The notes under the pieces: generated by a model | The model's input: only the letters and a program-made list of their open reading frames with translations | The model's database searches: none | Told to the model about the DNA's origin: nothing | In this document: positions 1-64,000 of the stretch, in pieces | Layout: each line of letters begins with the position of its first letter | How positions within the stretch are numbered: position 1 is the first letter of the stretch | Translations under genes and position numbers: made by a program | From: Terrimonas ginsenosidimutans | Lineage (GTDB): Bacteria > Bacteroidota > Bacteroidia > Chitinophagales > Chitinophagaceae | Assembly (NCBI RefSeq): GCF_022012415.1 | Contig: NZ_JAKLTR010000020.1 | Location: 1 to 64,000, forward strand | Reading direction: 5' to 3' | Length of the DNA stretch: 64,000 nt

Positions 1-62
1 TACCTCACTCGAATTCCGGACAACGGACAACGGTCAACGGTCAACGGACAACGATCAACAAT
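1..62. repeat. Right end of a heptamer repeat element (copy 1)
   Basis: Six tandem 7-nt units of the form CGGACAA, CGGTCAA or CGATCAA lie at 17-58. They are preceded by CCTCACTCGAATTCCGG, which resembles the flank CCTCCCTTGAACTCCGG found before the right-hand heptamers at about 37077 and 63561. The window probably begins inside an element whose left half lies outside. It abuts the stop codon of the DUF3347 gene at 67. Confidence 0.75.
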
Positions 63-716: not shown

Positions 717-768
717 ATCGCCGGATCGGGAATCGGGAATGCTTTATTTTTGCGAAATTATTGAGGTT

Positions 769-865
769 CGTTGACCGTTGACCGTTGACCGTTGACCGTT
801 GACCGATCAGCGATCATCGTTATTTCAGACGGGGAATCCGGACAACGGACTATAGTCAACGGACA
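769..865. repeat. Heptamer repeat element (copy 2), degenerate
   Basis: Five exact units of CGTTGAC occupy 769-803. After about 35 nt an inverted arm follows (about 838-865) that contains CGGACAACGGAC and GTCAACGGACA. No long hairpin core is present, unlike copies 3 and 4. The element fills the divergent gap between the DUF3347 gene and the ABC-F gene. The rest of the gap shows nothing else recognisable. Confidence 0.8.
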
Positions 866-897
866 TCGATCCAAACGGAGATTAACAAAATAAAGCA

Positions 898-10973: not shown

Positions 10974-11741
10974 ATGAATATCCCTGATTTTTCCGACCCG
11001 GCGATCTGGTTAAGTTTACTGACGCTCACCTTTCTTGAGATCGTTCTGGGTGTGGACAATATCATTTTCATCTCCATCATTTCGGACAGGCTTGATCCAT
11101 CGCAGCAGAAGAAAGCGCGGAATATTGGCTTGTTACTGGCGATGGTCATGCGGATCATTTTACTGTTAACGATCACCTGGATCCTCCGGTTGCAAACACC
11201 TTTATTCACGCTGCCTTATATCACTGCTGAAGGTCAGCCAGTGAGCATCAGCTGGAAGGATCTGATCATGATGGCAGGTGGATTATTCCTTGTTGTTAAA
11301 AGCACGCTGGAGATCCATCACAAATTGGAAAAGCCGTCCACGGAAACTGAAAAGAAAACCGTGTACACCGCATTCTCTTCTGTGGTTCTGCAGATCGTAA
11401 TGGTAGACGCAGTATTCTCGTTTGATTCGATCCTTACAGCCATTGGCATGGTAGATGAAGTATTTGTAATGATCGTGGCGGTGATCATTTCCATTGCGAT
11501 CATGATGCTTTTTGCGGGACCTATCAGCCGATTCATCAATAAAAATCCTACGCTGCAGATGCTGGCCTTATCCTTTCTGATCGCGATCGGGATCATGCTG
11601 GTGGCCGAAGGTTTTCATCAGAAGATCAGTAAGAGTTATATCTATACGATGATCGCATTCTCCCTGCTGGTTGAGCTGCTGAATATGCGGTTGAGAAAGA
11701 GGAATGAATCGATTGAGTTGCCGAAGGGGAAGAAAGTTTAA
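10974..11741 (+). CDS. TerC-family integral membrane protein
   Basis: A 255-residue protein with about seven hydrophobic helices. The family signature is clear: LTFLEIVLGVDNIIFISII near the N-terminus and, symmetrically, VDAVFSFDSILTAIGMV in the middle. These buried acidic residues (EIVLGVDN, DAVFSFDS) are the proposed metal-binding sites. TerC proteins have been linked to tellurite resistance and, more recently, to manganese export or metalation of exported proteins; I cannot choose between these. A near-consensus -7 box (TACTTTTA, 10963-10970) lies just before the ATG. The TAA stop (11739-11741) lies inside the first unit of an octamer repeat array, so the last residues may have been shaped by the repeat. 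Confidence 0.93.
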   Translation: MNIPDFSDPAIWLSLLTLTFLEIVLGVDNIIFISIISDRLDPSQQKKARNIGLLLAMVMRIILLLTITWILRLQTPLFTLPYITAEGQPVSISWKDLIMMAGGLFLVVKSTLEIHHKLEKPSTETEKKTVYTAFSSVVLQIVMVDAVFSFDSILTAIGMVDEVFVMIVAVIISIAIMMLFAGPISRFINKNPTLQMLALSFLIAIGIMLVAEGFHQKISKSYIYTMIAFSLLVELLNMRLRKRNESIELPKGKKV

Positions 11742-11807
11742 AAGTTTAATGGTTTAATAGTTTAAAAGTTAAGCATTCAACTATTAAACTTTAAACTTTC
11801 TTCCCCT
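11725..11807. repeat. Octamer array and palindrome joining terC-like and hypothetical gene ends
   Basis: Units GTTTAAAA, GTTTAATG, GTTTAATA and GTTTAAAA run at 11736-11767. The outer arms AGGGGAAGAAAGTTTAAA (11725-11742) and TTTAAACTTTCTTCCCCT (11790-11807) are perfectly complementary over 18 bp. The left arm is coding (end of the TerC gene) and the right arm touches the stop codon of the convergent gene at 11806. Confidence 0.85.
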
Positions 11808-12468: not shown

Positions 12469-13458
12469 ATGACAGATATGAGGATTGCGATCAACGGAAT
12501 GGGCCGGATCGGCCGGCTTTTGTTCAGAAGACTGGTGAATCACCCGAACCTGGAACTGGTTGCGGTGAATGATATTATGCCAACGGATAACCTGGCATAC
12601 CTGATCAGGTATGATTCGGTTTATGGCACCTATCCCGCCCCTGTTTCTGTTGATGGAACCCATCTGGAAGTATCCGGAAAGCGTGTCGCTGCATTTAATG
12701 CGGATCATCCGTCTAAGCTGCCCTGGAAAGATCTTGGGGTGGATGTGGTGCTGGAATGCTCAGGTAAATTCAGTTCGGAAACCGGTGCGCGCGAACACCT
12801 GAAATCCGGCGCTAAAAAAGTGCTGTTGTCTACAACCGGCTCTGCAGAAATTCCTTTAATGATCTATGGATTCAACCATAACAGCATCGATCCCGGAAGT
12901 GATATCATATCTCCGGGCGGTTGCATGACCAATTGCTCGGTGCATGTGATCGACCTGCTCAATGCGATCGGTATCGAGACCATCCAAATGAACATCCTTC
13001 ACTCTTATACCTCACGCCAGGAGTTGGTGGATGCTCCGCATCCTCAGTTTATCCGTGGCCGTGCTGCTGCGGAATCGATCATTCCTGTTGAAATAGATCT
13101 GGCCCAATCACTTGAAAGAGTGTTGCCGGGCATGAAGAACAGGATCGCTGCTGTATCCACGCGGGTTCCTGTTGCCAACGGAGCGATGGCCGATTTCACC
13201 GCACAGTTGAAAAGACCTGCTACAAAAGAGGAAGTGAATGCGCTGTTTAAGAAAGCCGCAGAAGGCGACTTAAAGGGCGTGGTCGGTTACACAGAAGAAC
13301 CGCTTGTTTCGCTGGATTATAAAGGCAACACCCACTCCTGCGTGATAGACGGACATCTTACGACAGTGATCGGAAACCAGGTTAAGCTGATCGCCTGGTT
13401 CGATAATGAATATGGATTCACGAGCCGGATGATCGACTGGCTCGAATACTGGGGATGA
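12469..13458 (+). CDS. Divergent type I glyceraldehyde-3-phosphate dehydrogenase-like protein
   Basis: A 329-residue protein aligning by eye along the whole GAPDH family. It has NAD-binding INGMGRIGRLLFRR, the catalytic-loop equivalent PGGCMTNCSVH, the catalytic His in ILHSYTSRQELVDAPH, RGRAAAESIIP and the C-terminal WFDNEYGFTSRM. The nucleophilic Cys and the His are kept. However, the usual SCTTNC is GCMTNC, and the phosphate-binding TTTGAAK-type segment is VEIDLAQ. Altered substrate or a non-glycolytic role (erythrose-4-phosphate-type or other aldehyde) is possible. The ATG at 12469 was chosen; 12478 is the alternative. It stands alone, with no glycolytic neighbours. A palindrome with T-runs follows. 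Confidence 0.85.
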   Translation: MTDMRIAINGMGRIGRLLFRRLVNHPNLELVAVNDIMPTDNLAYLIRYDSVYGTYPAPVSVDGTHLEVSGKRVAAFNADHPSKLPWKDLGVDVVLECSGKFSSETGAREHLKSGAKKVLLSTTGSAEIPLMIYGFNHNSIDPGSDIISPGGCMTNCSVHVIDLLNAIGIETIQMNILHSYTSRQELVDAPHPQFIRGRAAAESIIPVEIDLAQSLERVLPGMKNRIAAVSTRVPVANGAMADFTAQLKRPATKEEVNALFKKAAEGDLKGVVGYTEEPLVSLDYKGNTHSCVIDGHLTTVIGNQVKLIAWFDNEYGFTSRMIDWLEYWG

Positions 13459-13468
13459 AGTGAGAAGT

Positions 13469-13546
13469 CAAAAGTAAAAAATAGCTTATGCCGGAAGAAA
13501 TAGCCCTTATGTCATGAGCTATTTTTTACTTTTTAATTTTGACTTC
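13469..13546. repeat. Intergenic palindrome, probable bidirectional terminator
   Basis: Left arm GAAGTCAAAAGTAAAAAATA and its near-complement on the right, ATTTTTTACTTTTTAATTTT followed by GACTTC, enclose about 28 nt between two convergent genes. The AGTCAAAAGTAAAAA word recurs at about 49826 near prfB. Confidence 0.7.
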
Positions 13547-19575: not shown

Positions 19576-21999
19576 TCAGATGTCCAGTATTTTCAATGCT
19601 TTGGTAATATTGGTGGAGCCAGTCAGTACGTCCCTGAAAAGATCTCCTTTTTTCTTTACCCGTTCAAAAATATTGGAGATGGTGAATTGCGATGGACTAA
19701 GCCGGTGATCTACCTCCTTCCATTCCAGTGGTGTGGACACCTGCGCTCCGGGAACGGGCCTGAGACTGTATGCGCAAGCAAGCGTCTGCCCTATCCTGTT
19801 CTGGAGATAATCCAGATAGATCCTTGGGCCACGCTTTGCCAAAGAACGCTCCAGTGTGGTAGTTTTGGGTAGAAGTTCCTGCACCCGTTGCGCAACGATC
19901 TTCGCGAAATCCTTTACCTCGTCATACGTGTACTTATTTTTCATCGGAACATACACGTGCAATCCGGATGCTCCTGAAGTCTTGCAATATGACCTGATCT
20001 TTGCGCGGTCAAGCACTTCTTTAACAGCCAGTGCCGTATCAACCACGTCTTTAAAAGTATTCTTATCCGAAGGGTCGATATCTATCACCATCCAGCCGGG
20101 CTTATCCCTGGACGTGGTTTTGCTGTTCCATGGATTGATCTCTATACTTCCAAGATTGGCCAGGTAAAGAAGTGTGGCTTTATTATTACAAACGATATAA
20201 TCAATGATCTTCCCATCCCCGCTTTTATACTTGAATACGTCTACATAATCAGGCGCATTCTCTCCGGCATCCTTATGAAAGAACCCTTCATCCCGGATCC
20301 CATTGGGATTTCTCTTTAATGATAACGGCCGGCCTTTCAAATATGGCAGGATGTAAGAAGATATTTTATCGTAATAATCGATCACATCTCCTTTTGTATA
20401 GCCTTCATCAGGCCAGAATACTTTGTGCCGGTTGCTGACAGTAACATTGAATTTTCCAACTTTGATCTCTTCATTCCTCTTCACCTCTTTGATATCATCA
20501 ACGATCTCTTCGTTGACTTGTTTCGCGGATTTTTCATCACGCAAACGAAGGAATACGGGATGTCTGAAGATCTTATCCCTGGTGATCTCACCGTAGCCGA
20601 TGTCTGCAACCAGCTTTGGTTTTAACCAGGTCACTTCATCGTTTACGGGAACTTTTTGTTTGAAGGGAGATTGATCCGTTTCAAGCGGTTTCATCGACTT
20701 ACTCAGTGACGCAAGTGTTTCATCAGAAAATCCTGTTCCCACATGACCACGGTATTCCCATGCTCTGCCTTTTTTATTTGCAACGATCAATGATCCGAAA
20801 TGCTTACGAGAGCCACGTGGGCGGGTATAACCGGCGATCACCACTTCTGTGGTTTGCACGTTCTTGATCTTCAACCATTCTTTACTCCTGTATCCTTCTT
20901 TATATTCGCTGTCTTTCTTTTTGGCGATGATCCCTTCCAATCCCTGTTTCTTTGCCTGTTCAAGAAAATCGGTACCACGTTCTTCTACATGATCACAATA
21001 ACGGACTGTTTTATTTTTACCGAGCAACTTCTTTAACAATTTCTTTCGCTCGATCAGCGGCAATTTCTTTGTGCTTTTACCATCCAGTTCGAGAAGGTCA
21101 AATACGTAGTATATAAGCGGGCTGTCAATATGATTTTCATAGTGCTGCAGCATTTGAAAATCAGGCAGGCTTTTTCCGTTCAACACAACGATCTCCCCGT
21201 CAAGTACAGCTTTATGCTTTAACTTTTGCAGGGATTGATAAATGGCGGGGTAACGATCGCTAAAGTCGAGACCATTTCTTGAATACAGTTTAACCTTATC
21301 ACCCCCTGTTTCGGCAACAGCTCTGTATCCATCCCATTTTATTTCGAAGATCCAGTCCTTATCATCAAATGGCATCTTGCTGATCGTTGCCAGCATGGGA
21401 CTGGTAAAATTTTTCAGTTTTTTCGATTTGCCATCGCGGATACTTGCGATCGTCCTGACCGGTTTGTTCTTCGCTTTCTCTGCATCATACATTGTATTTA
21501 CAGAGTGTTCATCTTTATGTTTGATGAGCAACCAGTTCTTTTCATTGTCTTTTTTCAGACGGACCAAAACGAACTCTCCTTTCAATTGGGATCCTTTCAA
21601 TTCAAATTTCAGTTCGCCTTTTTTCAACCCGGCAAGCGCCGCGCGTTCGCTGATGGGCTCATGCTGCTGATCAACGGGGATAAAGGTTCCTTTGTCCCAG
21701 ATATCAACATGACCCGCGCCGTAATTTCCTTTAGGGATATCGCCTTTGAAAGTGATATAGTCGACCGGATGGTCTTCAACTTCTACCGCCAGTCTTTTCT
21801 GCAACGGGTTCAATGAAGGTCCCTTGGGTACGGCCCAGCTTTTAAGCGCCCCGCCCAATTCCAGGCGAAAATCATAATGAAGCCGTGATGCTTCGTGCCG
21901 TTGTACCACGAACCGAAGCTTTGAAGCGGCATTCTTTTTCCCACGGGGCTCAGCGGTCTGTTTAAAATCCCGTTTTTTATTATAGGTGGTCAGGCTCAT
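19576..21999 (-). CDS. ligD: Multifunctional non-homologous end-joining DNA ligase LigD
   Basis: An 807-residue protein with the domain order phosphoesterase, ligase, polymerase. The 3'-phosphoesterase (about 1-165) has [14 protein letters not shown] and the [14 protein letters not shown] segment. The ATP-dependent ligase (about 195-500) has the nucleotidyl-acceptor motif EIKWDGYRA (Lys221) and downstream DGEIVVLN and [10 protein letters not shown]. The archaeo-eukaryotic primase-type polymerase (about 530-800) has the [12 protein letters not shown] metal-binding dyad and the [11 protein letters not shown] motif. This is the complete tripartite form. It overlaps the Ku gene by 4 nt (ATGA), a translationally coupled double-strand-break repair operon. 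Confidence 0.97.
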
Positions 22000-24568: not shown

Positions 24569-25906
24569 ATGCAATCAAATTCATTAGTGCATGAAGCGAA
24601 GAAAACGCTTCAGCTTTCTTTACCAATAATTTTTGGCGAGATAGCGCAGATGGCGCTTCACCTGATCGATACAGCGATGGCCGGTGCGTTGGGTTACAAG
24701 CAACTGGCCGCGGCATCTCTTGTACTGGCCGTGCTGAATATTCCTTTTGTGGTCGGAATAGGTATGACCATTTCAGTATCGCAGCTGGTATCCATGTCAC
24801 ATGGACGGCGGGACGCTCAAAAAGTATCTCACTATTTCTATAACGGATTCTGGATTTGTGCCTTAACGGCATTGATCATTTCCCTTGGTCTTGAATTTGG
24901 GAAGGGTATTTTGTTTCATCTGAAACAGGACCCGGAAGTAGCCGCAATGGCGGTACCATTTCTTCAACTGATGGGCTGGAGTGTTATCCCGATGTTGTTG
25001 TTCATGTCATTAAAGCAATTTGCAGACGGGCTGGAAAAAACGCGCACAGCGATGATCATAACAGTCATTGGTGTGCCGCTCAACATTCTCCTGAACTGGC
25101 TGTTGATCTTTGGCAATGCGGGGTTTCCACGCCTCGAGCTGGCAGGAGCAGGCTGGAGCACGCTGATCACACGAACGCTGATGTTCCTCGCACTAGGAGC
25201 TGTGATCCTCTGGCACCCTGTCTTTAACCGGTACATTGCGGTCAGAAAAAACCAGTGGCGGTTAAAAATGCAAACGATCAAAGAATTGTTACACATCGGC
25301 ATTCCCAGCGGCTTACAGATCGGTATGGAAGGTGGTGCATTTGCCGTGTCGGGAATAATCATCGGAAGTATCGGTGCTACAGAGCAGGCGGCGCACCAGA
25401 TCGCGCTGACCTGTGCATCTTTCACATTCATGGCGTCCCTCGGCCTCGCGCAGGGCAGTTCGATCCGTGTAAGCAACGCATTTGGAACCCGCAACAGGCA
25501 GAAGATCCTGAATATAGGGAAGAGTACACTGATCACCGGTCTGCTATATGGGATTTTCTGTGCAACGCTTTTCATTGTGCTTCGCAATATATTACCCACA
25601 GGTTTCAATGATAATGCAAACGTGATTGAAATGGCTTCACTCCTGCTTGTACTCGCAGCGATCTTTCAGATCTCCGATGCTACACAGGCCATAGGTGCCG
25701 GTTTGCTTCGCGGGATCAAAGACGTAAAAATTCCCACTATACTCATCGCGATCGCCTATTGGGTAATTGGTATTCCGCTCGGCTATCTTCTTGCTTTCAA
25801 AGGCAACATGGGGGCATCAGGGATCTGGGTCGGGTTCATTGCCGGCCTTTCCTGCTCAAGCATTTTTCTTTGTATACGGTTTATGAGAATGGCGCGGAAG
25901 GTGTGA
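24569..25906 (+). CDS. MATE-family multidrug/Na+ efflux transporter
   Basis: A 445-residue integral membrane protein with about 12 hydrophobic helices, split into two similar halves. N-terminal motifs IIFGEIAQMALHLIDTAMAG and the later IGIPSGLQIGMEGGAF are typical of MatE domains. Probably exports cationic drugs or metabolites by Na+ or H+ antiport. The open frame begins at a TTG (24551); the ATG at 24569 is preferred. The gene ends in TGA at 25904-25906, 10 nt before an octamer array that continues into the 3' end of the convergent Nudix gene. Confidence 0.93.
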   Translation: MQSNSLVHEAKKTLQLSLPIIFGEIAQMALHLIDTAMAGALGYKQLAAASLVLAVLNIPFVVGIGMTISVSQLVSMSHGRRDAQKVSHYFYNGFWICALTALIISLGLEFGKGILFHLKQDPEVAAMAVPFLQLMGWSVIPMLLFMSLKQFADGLEKTRTAMIITVIGVPLNILLNWLLIFGNAGFPRLELAGAGWSTLITRTLMFLALGAVILWHPVFNRYIAVRKNQWRLKMQTIKELLHIGIPSGLQIGMEGGAFAVSGIIIGSIGATEQAAHQIALTCASFTFMASLGLAQGSSIRVSNAFGTRNRQKILNIGKSTLITGLLYGIFCATLFIVLRNILPTGFNDNANVIEMASLLLVLAAIFQISDATQAIGAGLLRGIKDVKIPTILIAIAYWVIGIPLGYLLAFKGNMGASGIWVGFIAGLSCSSIFLCIRFMRMARKV

Positions 25907-26082
25907 AGGGAGAAGGGTTTAAGAGTTTAAAAGTTTAAGAGTTTAATAGTTTAAAAGTTTAAGAGTTCAGAAGTTCATGTACAATGTTTAGGTTAAAATA
26001 TTAAAGTAGCATACTCTTAAACTATTAAACTTTTAAACTTTTAAACTCTTTAACCATTAAACTCTTAAACCCTTCTCCCTTC
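25907..26082. repeat. Octamer repeat palindrome between MATE and Nudix genes
   Basis: The left array is eight 8-nt units at 25917-25980, of type GTTTAADD (GTTTAAGA, GTTTAAAA, GTTTAATA and two decayed GTTCA units). The right array is seven units at 26014-26069 of type CTNTTAAA. The outer arms GAAGGGAGAAGGGTTTAAGA (from 25908) and TCTTAAACCCTTCTCCCTTC (to 26082) are perfectly complementary. The stop codon and last codons of the Nudix gene (26057-26082) lie inside the right array and arm. Confidence 0.9.
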
Positions 26083-36828: not shown

Positions 36829-36866
36829 TAAGTCCCGCTGTTTCTACAGGGGGGCTTATTTTTTTC
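36829..36866 (+). terminator. Probable terminator after the pyrophosphatase gene
   Basis: TAAGTCCC pairs with GGGGCTTA around the loop, followed by eight T residues that run directly into the heptamer array. Confidence 0.65.
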
Positions 36867-37134
36867 CGTTGTCCGTTGTCCGTTGTCCGTTGTCCGTTGT
36901 CCGTTGTCCGTTGTCCGTTGTCCGTTGTCCGTTGTCCGTTGTCCGTTGTCCGTTGTCCGTTGTCCGTTGTCCGTTGTCCGTTGTCCGTTGTCCGACGCAA
37001 ATTAAAAGAGGGGGTTATCGTTTTTAAACGATAACCCCCTCTTTTAATTTGCATACGAAGATGCAATTCTATTCCACCTCCCTTGAACTCCGGACAACGG
37101 TGAACGGTCAACGGTCAACGATCAACGGTCAACG
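36865..37134. repeat. Heptamer repeat element with central hairpin (copy 3)
   Basis: Eighteen exact TCCGTTG units fill 36865-36990. A perfect 24-bp hairpin follows, with arms at 36997-37020 and 37029-37052 around TTTTTAAA. A conserved flank contains TTGCATACGAAGATGCAA, which can itself fold. The right arm has six CGGACAA/CGGTCAA-type units (37091-37132) inverted relative to the left. The hairpin stem is GGGGG/CCCCC rich. An open frame through the array on the minus strand (TTDNGQR repeats) is not a gene. Confidence 0.95.
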
Positions 37135-37215
37135 AAACTGTAACCTTCTTCGTATTTCTACGTCTCATCGTTAACCATTGTTAAAAAACCTTAAATAAGG
37201 CGTTGCCATGTTCTT

Positions 37216-42901: not shown

Positions 42902-43113
42902 CGAAGATACTAAACGCGAATGAACACGAATTGCCGCGAATTAACACGAATAGGTCGTTTCTGCATTAGCAGGCCATTCAAATTCGAAGACAGCTTAGTT
43001 ATCCTGGCAAGTACAGGATTTGCTATTCCGGATCTGCATCCCGTTCTATGCGGAAACGACCTACTCGTGTTCATTCGCGACAATTCGCGTTCATTCGCGT
43101 TTAGCTATCTTTG
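42902..43113. repeat. Decamer palindrome forming a mirror-image divergent promoter (pyrE / Nudix)
   Basis: Four 10-nt units of type TNNNCRCGAA (42911-42950) and inverted units (43063-43102, including TTCATTCGCG) form ~50-bp arms around about 92 nt. Both outer ends contain a -7 box: TATCTTCG for pyrE and TATCTTTG (43106-43113) for the Nudix gene, each exactly 4 nt before its ATG. The repeat therefore includes both promoters. Confidence 0.9.
43106..43113 (+). promoter_or_regulatory. -7 box (TATCTTTG) of the Nudix gene
   Basis: A perfect match, 4 nt from the ATG at 43118, implying a leaderless mRNA. Confidence 0.6.
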
Positions 43114-49787: not shown

Positions 49788-49822
49788 TGGATTGTGTTGT
49801 TTTTTGTTAATAACAAACAAAG

Positions 49823-49912
49823 CAAAAAGTCAAAAGTAAAAAAGCCTTGAGTCTGTCAATAAATAACAAATCGGCTGTTCCAATTTTTAATGTTGACTTC
49901 TTACTTTTTGAC
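49823..49912. repeat. AGTCAAAAGTAAAAA repeat between P5CDH and prfB genes
   Basis: AAAAGTCAAAAGTAAAAAAG at about 49825 and an inverted TGACTTCTTACTTTTTGACT at about 49893-49913 form an imperfect palindrome resembling the one after the GAPDH gene at 13469. The word occurs in both convergent and tandem gaps. Confidence 0.6.
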
Positions 49913-57063: not shown

Positions 57064-57090
57064 CTTTAAACTATTAAACTTTTAAACTTC
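57064..57090. repeat. Partial octamer repeat (CTNTTAAA) copy
   Basis: CTTTAAA, CTATTAAA and CTTTTAAA follow one another in the 56910-57231 gap, the same octamer type as at 26014-26069. No inverted partner is visible nearby. Confidence 0.6.
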
Positions 57091-57231
57091 ACCCCATCTT
57101 CCTCACCTGTCCAACCCGATCCCTCACAAACCAGTCCATGAGTGTTTTACGCCAGTTCATGCTATTACAGCTTCCACAACGATCATATTCAACGCAACTT
57201 TGAGGAAAGGATAACCATTAAACTTAATTTT

Positions 57232-62588: not shown

Positions 62589-63404
62589 ATGAAAAAAATC
62601 TTCTTTTTTACCACTATCGTTGCTCTCTTTTCAGCATGTACCAACGGTGATCAAAACGCAGGTGATGGCGGCAGCAAAACGGCCGACCCCGCTCCGCAGC
62701 GCAATTCACCAAAATCCATCAGCTACTCGATCCTGAATACCTATCCCCACGATACCTCTTCCTTTACCCAGGGGCTCGTTGTATATAATGGCGACCTGTA
62801 TGAGGGTACCGGAGAGTACGGTCACTCCCATTTGCTAAAAACAGATATTACAACCGGTAAGATCCTGAAAAAGACCCCACTCGATGCTAAGTATTTCGGT
62901 GAGGGCATCACGATCCTCCATGACACGATCTACCAGCTCACCTGGCAGGAAAAAGTGGTATTTGCCTATACATTGAAAGACTTTAAAAAAGTTAAGGAAT
63001 TCAGCATCAATACGCAGGGCTGGGGCATTACCACCGATGGGAAAGACCTTCTTGTGAGTGACGGCAGCAGCAATATCTATTATTATAACCCTTCCACGTT
63101 CCAGTTACAGCGTACCCAAACGATCACCGAGAACGGTAGCTTATCCTTCAATCTGAATGAGCTGGAATATATCGATGGCTTTTTGTACGCCAACCAGTGG
63201 CAGGCTCCTTATATCCTGAAGATCGAACCCGGCAGCGGGTCCATCGTCGGCAAAATCGACCTTACCAATATCTGGAACCGCGTCAAAGCAAATGACCCTG
63301 CTGCCGACGTCCCTAACGGGATCGCCTTCGACAGCACCACCAAAAAGATCTACATCACCGGAAAGAGATGGCCGGAGTTGTATGAGGTGCAGTTGGGAGA
63401 GTAA
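62589..63404 (+). CDS. Glutaminyl-peptide cyclotransferase (glutamine cyclase), lipoprotein
   Basis: A 271-residue lipoprotein (MKKIFFFTTIVALFSACTN, Cys17). The mature part is a five-bladed beta-propeller cyclase: YPHDTSSFTQGLVVYNGDLYEGTGEYG, GEGITILHDTIYQLTW, GWGITTDGKDLLVSDGSS, LNELEYIDGFLYANQW and PNGIAFDSTTKKIYITGKRWPELYEV. It converts N-terminal Gln to pyroglutamate, often on exported proteins in Bacteroidota. It ends 10 nt before the fourth heptamer element. Confidence 0.93.
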   Translation: MKKIFFFTTIVALFSACTNGDQNAGDGGSKTADPAPQRNSPKSISYSILNTYPHDTSSFTQGLVVYNGDLYEGTGEYGHSHLLKTDITTGKILKKTPLDAKYFGEGITILHDTIYQLTWQEKVVFAYTLKDFKKVKEFSINTQGWGITTDGKDLLVSDGSSNIYYYNPSTFQLQRTQTITENGSLSFNLNELEYIDGFLYANQWQAPYILKIEPGSGSIVGKIDLTNIWNRVKANDPAADVPNGIAFDSTTKKIYITGKRWPELYEVQLGE

Positions 63405-63413
63405 GGAGTGATC

Positions 63414-63595
63414 GTTGTCCGTTGTCCGTTGTCCGTTGTCCGTTGTCCGTTGTCCGTTGTCCGTTGTCCGTTGTCCGACACAAATTAAAAGAAGGGGGGT
63501 ATCGTTTTTAAACGATACCCCCCTTCTTTTAATTTGTATACGAAGATGCAATTCTATTCCACCTCCCTTGAACTCCGGACAACGGTCAACGGTCA
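63414..63595. repeat. Heptamer repeat element with central hairpin (copy 4)
   Basis: Nine GTTGTCC units (63414-63476) precede a perfect 25-bp hairpin (arms 63480-63504 and 63513-63537 around TTTTTAAA). A flank identical to copy 3 for over 40 nt follows, then three inverted units. The right arm extends into the last codons of the methyltransferase gene: its TGA stop (63593-63595) lies in the repeat. Confidence 0.95.
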
Positions 63596-64000
63596 ACGAT
63601 CCCCCTTCCCTATTACATAAATCACCGAACTGCACTTCTTCACGTCACCTAAGGCTTTCAGGTTCGAAGTGAACCCGCTCCAGGCAGCGCCGGGCCAGTT
63701 GGTCTGGCCATTCTTGTACTTGCTGCTGAGAAGTGAAATATAAAAGCTGTCGTACCACATGGGTTTATGTTCAATTACTTTCAACCCGTTCTTCTGCATC
63801 AGCACCTGTATCGAAGCAGGAGAGAAATGATAGAGATGGCGGGGCACATCGAAGGCGGCCCAGTACTCTTTATAATCCTGTGCGTCTTTTGAAGTATAGT
63901 TAGGAACTGCGATAAAAAGGCGGCCTTTATCGGTGAGCAGATTTCTTAATTGCTGCACGTATGCATGCAGATCATGAACATGTTCCAGCACATGCCAGAG
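63593..64000 (-). CDS. Class I SAM-dependent methyltransferase, C-terminal part (cut by window end)
   Basis: The partial gene continues beyond the window. The visible ~135 residues include LWHVLEHVHDLHAYVQQL (the post-motif helix of class I methyltransferases), GRLFIAVPNY, HLYHFSPASIQVLMQKNGLKV, and a C-terminal GKGDR tail. The first complete codon in frame at 64000 precedes a GTG-coded Val, so no start is present here. The Gly-rich SAM-binding motif I lies outside. The stop is contributed by the heptamer element. Substrate unknown. Confidence 0.85.
   Translation of the reverse strand, partial: LWHVLEHVHDLHAYVQQLRNLLTDKGRLFIAVPNYTSKDAQDYKEYWAAFDVPRHLYHFSPASIQVLMQKNGLKVIEHKPMWYDSFYISLLSSKYKNGQTNWPGAAWSGFTSNLKALGDVKKCSSVIYVIGKGDR

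Follow-up and report, generated by a model that had tools for sequence, protein, structure and literature searches.

What kind of element is formed by the heptamer repeats at positions 36865-37134, where a long uniform array, a perfect hairpin and a shorter array in inverted orientation follow each other, and how does the hairpin stem keep its pairing from copy to copy? The window, by which we mean the whole stretch of 64,000 nt analysed, comprises the first 64 kb of contig 13 (C13) of the 7.14 Mb draft genome of Terrimonas ginsenosidimutans. One sister genome of the same genus, G084, served as the single comparison genome of the genus.

Heptamer arms and hairpins in the genome

The window contains two copies of the hairpin element as well as one heptamer-armed element without hairpin and one truncated heptamer element:

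36866..36994, plus strand: left arm, 18 identical CCGTTGT units followed by CCG
36997..37023, plus strand: left stem of the hairpin, 27 nt
37024-37025: hairpin loop, TT
37026..37052, plus strand: right stem of the hairpin, 27 nt, perfect complement of the left stem
37053..37090, plus strand: conserved unpaired flank common to the hairpin family, 38 nt
37091..37134, minus strand: right arm, about six inverted mixed heptamers (NCAACGG and variants)
63412..63477, plus strand: left arm of the second copy, TCGTTGT followed by 8 CCGTTGT units and CCG
63480..63537, plus strand: hairpin of the second copy, 28 perfect pairs, loop TT
63538..63575, plus strand: conserved flank of the second copy
63576..63601, minus strand: right arm of the second copy
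768..868, no strand given: heptamer-armed element with a 33-nt centre and without hairpin, site empty in G084
17..59, minus strand: right arm of a heptamer element truncated by the contig start

The initial annotation had described 18 exact 7-nt repeats, a perfect 24-bp hairpin, a conserved flank and inverted 7-nt units at the first site, and the same layout with nine repeats at the second. Tandem Repeats Finder agrees with the repeats in all three arrays, reporting period 7 with 18.6 copies and 100% match for 36865-36994, 6.3 copies and 86% for the inverted units at 37091-37134, and 9.3 copies and 100% for 63413-63477. The hairpins are indeed without mismatch but longer than described, with 27 pairs at 36997-37052 and 28 at 63480-63537. 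The flank behind the hairpin is identical between the two copies for more than 40 nt, and each difference between their stems is matched on the opposite arm, both as described. The two copies share one plan (18 versus nine left-arm units, 27 versus 28 pairs), and one whole base pair has gone from both stem arms of the copy at 36997 in comparison with the copy at 63480.

A genome search with the second copy gave 48 matches falling into 27 places, namely 24 full hairpins (both window copies included), L023, which is cut by a contig end, and L025 and L027, in which the family flank is present and the left half is different. The window element is therefore one of at least 24 look-alike inserts in this genome, as expected from the annotation's proposal of many copies with variable repeat number, and its alternative of a recent duplication of two copies is ruled out by the 27 places. 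The array on the hairpin side comprises 4-18 units and is mostly pure (all T or all A), while the far-side array behind the 38-nt flank mostly has 2-5 mixed units; in purity three copies deviate, L006 and L020 with mixed units and L024 with an interrupted array. A pattern of three CCGTTGN units occurs 237 + 210 times in the genome, with no occurrence of the reversed control. Among 147 genomes drawn from the family, the own genome counted, four contain this pattern, with 447 occurrences here, 1 in G084 and 2 in each of two others. The exact flank pattern of the hairpin family gave no match in the named genomes.

The same arms also enclose other centres. A first listing of inward-facing pairs held 87 entries, duplicates and false pairs included, and after filtering 48 heptamer-armed elements with other centres remained, a few of them with CCGATGG-type units; their arms often begin with TCGTTG and end at CCG. 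In the 41 further loci that we read, the arms mostly form inward-facing pairs and enclose centres of 22 to about 240 nt; L094, L138 and L142 are single arms, and some other arms are cut by a contig end. When 39 centres were searched against the genome, the matches listed were mostly of the centres to themselves (40 of 207 first-look candidates scored), and the centres of L062 and L130 are similar by eye, so that we treat the uniqueness of the centres as provisional. Arms of one element resemble each other more than they resemble those of other elements: over the 48 elements the local score of arms compared in mirror order was 0.806 against a permuted mean of 0.750 (reached in 0 of 500 permutations), and the inner-anchored identity was 0.862 against 0.823 (again 0 of 500). 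The outer-anchored identity, which was reached in 76 of 500 permutations, is uninformative, since for this measure the arms had been set against each other with a shift of one base.

We counted 33 inverted repeats with periodic arms in 312 kb here (7 + 26) versus 2 in 320 kb of G084; the count was limited to ungapped arms and missed some elements, including the two hairpin copies of the window. Other repeat units with the same layout were of the AGTTTAAA, AAAAGTCAAAAAGT, CGCAAAGAG, CACGAATGAT and GGAAGGTTT types. In the window itself, inverted arms of AGTTTAAA-type octamers are located at 25905-26082 and 11733-11805, with one arm only at 57066-57103, and inverted arms of a separate unit family, the AAAAGTCAAAAGTAAAAA type, at 13457-13546 and 49804-49912. 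In G084, the inverted arms at C2:45427-45501 and 123408-123476 consist of a CACAAAGAC-like unit that differs from those here. Very long CCGATGG-type arrays adjoin CCGTTGN units in L152 and L139, the former with a higher-order pattern, and the centre of L159 (576-875, contig 23) contains another palindromic repeat, some 125 nt long, for which eleven relatives of 80-84% identity are listed elsewhere in the genome.

Cyanobacterial STRR sequences are tandem heptamers in intergenic DNA, defined without inverted pairing, and intergenic tandem heptamers are what we found here as well. The arrays might then be passive simple repeats of this kind that expand by slippage and owe their symmetry to chance or local inversion, which would suit the variable array number, the local uniformity of the arrays and the few single arms. 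It would not explain why a pattern counting one hit per arm starts at 149 places here (reversed control 9) and at only 15 in the sister (control 5), why most arms face inward in pairs and are alike in mirror order, and why whole elements are missing at orthologous sites (see below). We consider this explanation very improbable. Seven-nt units, intergenic location and patchy occurrence are also features of the TAACTGA repeats of Beggiatoaceae; according to the report on them (PMC4679880) those are nearly all direct, whereas the repeats here form inverted pairs around a centre.

Empty sites and genomic position

Contig 13 is collinear with contig 2 of G084, and the window site 36864-37164 measures 299 nt here versus 42 nt in the sister. 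Clear empty sites in G084 were found for nine heptamer-armed elements: at 754-897, 36864-37164 and 70110-70324 of C13, at 102669, 125986 and 172737 of contig 6 (C6), and, from flank queries, for L145, L148 and L160. We conclude from these nine sites that the heptamer-armed elements are insertions. L148 starts directly at a stop codon, and L160 occupies what is a gap of a few nt separating two genes in the sister. Neither the empty site of the element at 36864 nor that of a non-heptamer element at 42909 showed a target-site duplication, though the sister is distant and the exact ends are uncertain.

Eight flanks were queried against G084 in total, and the other five gave a less simple picture. 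The site of L135 holds a longer, mostly unrelated stretch in the sister, L133 was matched on one side only, L156 was matched at separate places, the flank of L129 had no match in G084, and for L159 a continuous search match fits absence of the element, though the alignment there was poor. At the site of the second window copy (63397-63606) G084 has 2.6 kb of other DNA. The centre of the element at C6:130011-130345 has a local score of 36 against G084 (shuffle maximum 28) and a global score of 8.5, which is inside the shuffle range (maximum 10.5); this centre may be native DNA and would fit poorly to a picture of simple whole inserts.

Over 112 kb, 18 intergenic stretches are at least 60 nt longer here than in G084, under a criterion that also limits total length, and 12 of the 18 contain an inverted repeat well above shuffles, some of these resembling ordinary terminators; by the same criterion no intergenic stretch is longer in G084. 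The AGTTTAAA-type element at 25905-26082 lies within a stretch that is missing from the sister genome. A non-heptamer element with 57-nt inverted arms of ACGCGAATGAACACGAAT-type units is found at 42910-43104, where G084 has only 5 nt.

The inserts are intergenic and often stand against a stop codon: 32 of 45 non-divergent elements end within 10 nt of one. Regarding the orientation of the neighbouring genes, 13 of the 23 placed hairpin copies were located between tandem, 8 between convergent and 2 between divergent genes, compared with 24 tandem, 0 convergent and 18 divergent for 42 other heptamer elements, and 59, 14 and 15 for the 88 neighbouring gene pairs of contig 13. These counts are based on crude gene calls and leave out 7 elements at locus edges. 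Selection against hits in promoters and genes may explain part of this placement.

Covariation of the hairpin stem

For the covariation analysis the 24 hairpin copies were aligned over 25 core pairs, the outermost and two loop-side pairs being left out. Of 598 pair cells 99.7% hold a standard pair, G-U counted, and 12 of the 25 pairs and 46 cells are altered on both sides. All five covariation measures exceed 500 of 500 column shuffles, which ignore the relatedness of the copies, and also the slid controls. Together with the three-unit pattern and its control without any occurrence, this shows that the structure in the window is not due to chance. Uncompensated substitutions, which according to the initial annotation would speak against its reading, are present in the core but rare, amounting to 7 cells that are wobble or broken and one one-sided gap. 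Over all 28 columns there are 644 Watson-Crick, 8 G-T, 3 A-C, 15 mismatched and 2 gapped cells, and the outermost and the two loop-side columns hold more of the non-Watson-Crick cells.

The annotation had left two causes of the compensated changes side by side, selection on the folded form and copying between the arms. Under the first, the hairpin would be a functional RNA, such as a bidirectional terminator, a processing site or a small RNA, and the near-perfect covariation would follow from selection on the fold; this is compatible with copying. The convergent placement of 8 of 23 hairpins against none of the 42 other elements, and a GC-rich stem bordered by A-rich and T-rich edges, agree with it. 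However, the terminator scan leaves the hairpin unmarked and a scan of the window against Rfam matched no family. By eye, the window copy lies behind another terminator-like stem with a T run which is common to the sister species, although that neighbouring stem is omitted by the terminator scan too. We have discarded an intrinsic terminator (a GC-rich stem with a T run directly behind it) as the main identity of the hairpin, given the unmarked scan, and a known RNA family, given the window without an Rfam match; a weakly T-rich edge is present.

The kinds of change in the stem bear on the same question. With a tree built on hairpin plus flank we counted 24 double (12 transitions and 12 transversions) versus 7 single changes when ties are resolved to double, and 21 versus 13 when they are resolved to single; on a tree from the flank alone the figures are 37 versus 7 and 33 versus 15, respectively. 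Single changes are thus fewer under every tree and tie rule tried, and transversions make up about half of the double changes. Transversion of both partners cannot pass via a G-U pair, and this counts against selection on the fold. The changed types show a transition to transversion ratio of 10:10 in the stem and 19:18 in the unpaired flank, and the stem changes at a rate close to that of the flank (divergence 0.123 and 0.126 for the two arms, 0.153 for the flank). L011 has five extra pairs, its palindrome having grown outward into the flank, and loops occur in both orientations (GATA in L018 versus TATC, AA in L007 versus TT).

We favour arm-copying by template switching over RNA selection as the explanation of the stem covariation, because double changes outnumber single ones, about half of them are transversions, the transition to transversion ratio is like that of the flank, an indel is symmetric, the palindrome can grow outward and loops are flipped. 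A hairpin maintained primarily as a functional RNA we regard as unlikely, and some selection on the fold may act in addition. Probably one half of the hairpin is the template for the other when the DNA is replicated, which would keep the stem perfect: a change in one arm would be copied into, or erased from, the other arm at the DNA level, and template switching would produce the compensated change in one step. DNA synthesis probably also slips where the hairpin stalls it, which would leave the adjoining array long and uniform, while the far array, 38 nt from the hairpin, would remain short and mixed. That template switching and slippage are the actual processes we infer from these patterns.

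Template switching in quasipalindromes is described (PMC8604942; PMC8794818) as homogenising arms, flipping spacers and mimicking compensatory mutation, with multi-base compensatory changes among its effects. The marks of a template-switched palindrome, that is compensated changes, spacer inversion and arm identity, are all seen in our copies, for which a one-step origin would be assumed; the difference is that here the pattern spans 24 dispersed copies in one genome. These hairpins offer a natural test bed for template switching versus stepwise selection as the source of 'compensatory' changes, and the result bears on the reading of covariation as proof of RNA structure.

PF05635 genes between inverted heptamer arms

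One of the heptamer-armed elements is coding. In L154 (contig 20) CCGTTGN arms about 470 nt apart enclose a gene of 123 codons which matches PF05635, the 23S rRNA intervening-sequence protein (IVP/S23), a four-helix-bundle family, with an E value of 2.2e-36; its single PDB match is 2gsc (XCC0516). Judged by their translations, the neighbouring genes look like moxR and a DUF58 gene. L154 is the sole PF05635 relative among the sequences of this genome that were read, and the other centres read showed no trace of an IVP gene. The protein also matches PF22296 (bAvd of diversity-generating retroelements, a related four-helix-bundle family) weakly and below the curated cut-off, and in contrast to such retroelements the genes beside L154 include no reverse transcriptase. 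The single RVT_1 (PF00078) match of the genome is a 489 aa protein with retron-like motifs by eye in L228 (955-2424, contig 63). In the plasmid of Anabaena 90, treated below, an annotated DGR Avd gene and reverse transcriptase (L323:9043-10539) are present in addition to an IVP insert.

Of a MITE one would expect target-site duplications (see above) and a full-length insertion sequence with the same ends; among the 100 of 149 arm starts that were listed, the one larger inward pair examined was the carrier of the IVP gene. No transposase or recombinase was identified for the heptamer arms, which counts against the reading that we prefer, and the IVP gene could be a passenger. Movement by a REP-associated tyrosine transposase (RAYT) would make the inserts REPIN-type elements, with which they share inverted short repeats around a spacer, an extragenic location and many copies (REPINs as characterised in PMC3116915), and the genome has two Y1 transposase (PF01797) matches. 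Nevertheless, the surroundings of both Y1 genes are free of heptamer arrays out to about 1.5 kb, one of these genes is accompanied by unrelated palindromes (CCCACGATT..AATCGTGGG), and the arms are tandem heptamer arrays and not single REPs. A REPIN identity was rejected on the distance to the two matches, and we hold RAYT-driven movement to be very unlikely. The Y1 gene in question (L122, contig 2, about position 20963) stands beside several CCCACGATT..AATCGTGGG palindromes; gene and palindromes look like a RAYT and the REPs belonging to it, and they have no relation to the heptamers.

Many genes for IVP relatives in other genomes proved to be armed in a similar way. A plasmid protein search yielded 24 records, mostly cyanobacterial, and at 8 of the 9 plasmid loci examined inverted short-repeat arms, with a different unit in each, were located within 200 nt of the gene; L233 is without such arms, and at L237 the gene limits were guessed. 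As to gene context, cas6 and cas4 are the neighbours in two of the nine cases, and nrdB and nrdA in one. In viral contigs no IVP relatives were found. A one-motif scan of the named genomes gave at least 588 IVP relatives, of which the best 80, by their record titles from many phyla, were analysed and 77 were testable. An inverted repeat with a score of at least 15 across the gene, a threshold set by the analyst after the first plasmid loci, was found at 49 of the 77 IVP loci versus 1 of 138 windows at fixed places in these loci and 7 of 135 other genes for which the sequence on either side was available; the fixed windows, at set distances, are not matched for intergenic DNA, and the gene control is the stricter one. 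When a period-7 match of at least 0.5 was required in addition, the counts were 43 of 77 and 4 of 135. The remaining 28 testable loci are below the threshold for the inverted repeat. L262 and L314, two of the 7 armed control loci, contain second IVP-like genes (L262:3127-3480, L314:2609-2947) about 0.3-0.8 kb from the first, and in these the second IVP gene is probably the control ORF itself.

The IVP arms match themselves at shift 7 with values of 0.68 and 0.69, as compared with 0.23-0.33 at the other shifts tested, and among the 49 armed loci the best period is 7 in 41 and 8 in 7. By a one-sided measure of periodicity, IVP flanks and controls could not be told apart (6 of 77 above the control 99% point). 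In 40 of the 49 the stop of the upstream reading frame lies within 60 nt of the left arm, a count taken without control, and 25 of the 49 left arms have stops in all three frames versus about 8 when shuffled.

Related cyanobacterial plasmids differ in whether they carry the coding insert. In Nostoc C052 the stop codon of a traM-like gene (TAG, versus TAA in the relative) contains the start of the insert, gene and arms together, which replaces about 40 nt; the plasmid of Nostoc C057, 94% identical, has neither the gene nor the arms, and in Nostoc ATCC 53789 this position is occupied by an insert without annotated gene but with similar heptamers at its ends. The cas6-IVP-cas4 insert of Anabaena 90 starts at the stop codon of cas6, and a Dolichospermum plasmid with 98.7% identity lacks gene and arms and has other DNA there. 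In 50 kb of sequence from the C052 plasmid there are two more inverted arm pairs of period 7 that lack the gene, along with pairs of other period; in a 50-kb stretch of the Anabaena plasmid the coding pair is the only one. Judging from these plasmid loci, some of the heptamer arrays of cyanobacteria may be halves of such inverted pairs.

Inverted arms with variable centres also recall eukaryotic foldback (FB) transposons, which have long inverted arms of short tandem units and a variable centre. The arms might accordingly be the termini of a DNA transposon that depends on a transposase gene at another place, with the IVP gene as only one of many captured centres. Inverted short-unit arms around unrelated centres are indeed what we observe (the uniqueness of the centres being provisional), centres were inserted along with the arms at several sites, and some non-IVP genes near IVP loci are armed as well (7 of 135). 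But heptamer elements are prokaryotic, much shorter and without known transposase, within the same loci IVP genes are bracketed by arms much more frequently than other genes are, and this across phyla, and a second IVP gene is present in two of the seven armed control loci, L262 and L314. We take foldback transposition to be an unlikely origin.

The closest described system is the intervening sequence (IVS) of 23S rRNA. It shares with L154 the complementary ends, here inverted heptamer arms able to pair, around an IVP (PF05635) gene, and in the Coxiella IVS, as portrayed in PMC4990558, tandem heptamers precede the S23p gene and RNase III excises the sequence. Otherwise the literature searched, as far as its text was covered, links no IVP/S23 genes to inverted heptamer arms. 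The heptamer-armed inserts differ from the described IVSs in place, in their full heptamer arms and in their gene-less swarms: they lie between protein genes, often at stop codons, the window copies carry no gene, and Rfam scans of the window and of 20 IVP loci (L154, 16 of the 80 and 3 of the 9 plasmid loci) gave no match at all, and hence none that would place them inside a 23S rRNA gene. The initial annotation, which recognised no named family and named STRR repeats as the closest analogue, was in this respect incomplete, as a PF05635 gene of this genome stands between such arms and inverted arrays, mostly of period 7, surround many of its relatives in other genomes.

Since the arms of L154 enclose a PF05635 gene and inverted arrays bracket PF05635 genes elsewhere, we think it probable that the element in the window descends, with no gene left, from IVS-like mobile DNA of a widespread heptamer-armed class, and that its stem is kept by template switching. 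The many copies, the empty sites, the symmetry of the stem, the likeness between the two arms of an element and the inverted arms around IVP genes are what the computations show directly. In such an element the insert would end in inward-facing inverted CCGTTGN arrays, the window copy being a non-coding member; the IVP protein might act as direct agent or as helper of movement, and by analogy with rRNA IVSs RNase III might remove the inserts from transcripts. More tentatively, with chances we would put at just short of even, inverted heptamer arrays and the IVP/S23 gene together form an unrecognised class of mobile elements that crosses phyla and has no transposase of its own. Its members would insert at stop codons, the heptamers often bringing stops in all frames, and would give rise to gene-less swarms and to many of the unexplained heptamer repeats of bacteria; rRNA IVSs would be members that landed in 23S genes, and the IVP protein would act on the arms or on arm RNA.

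This reading would join three puzzles, the intergenic heptamer repeats, the orphan S23/four-helix-bundle genes and the rRNA intervening sequences. Should the connection be borne out, a neglected class of mobile DNA would be open to direct tests, and if the IVP protein moves the arms without a transposase, this class would be categorically new.
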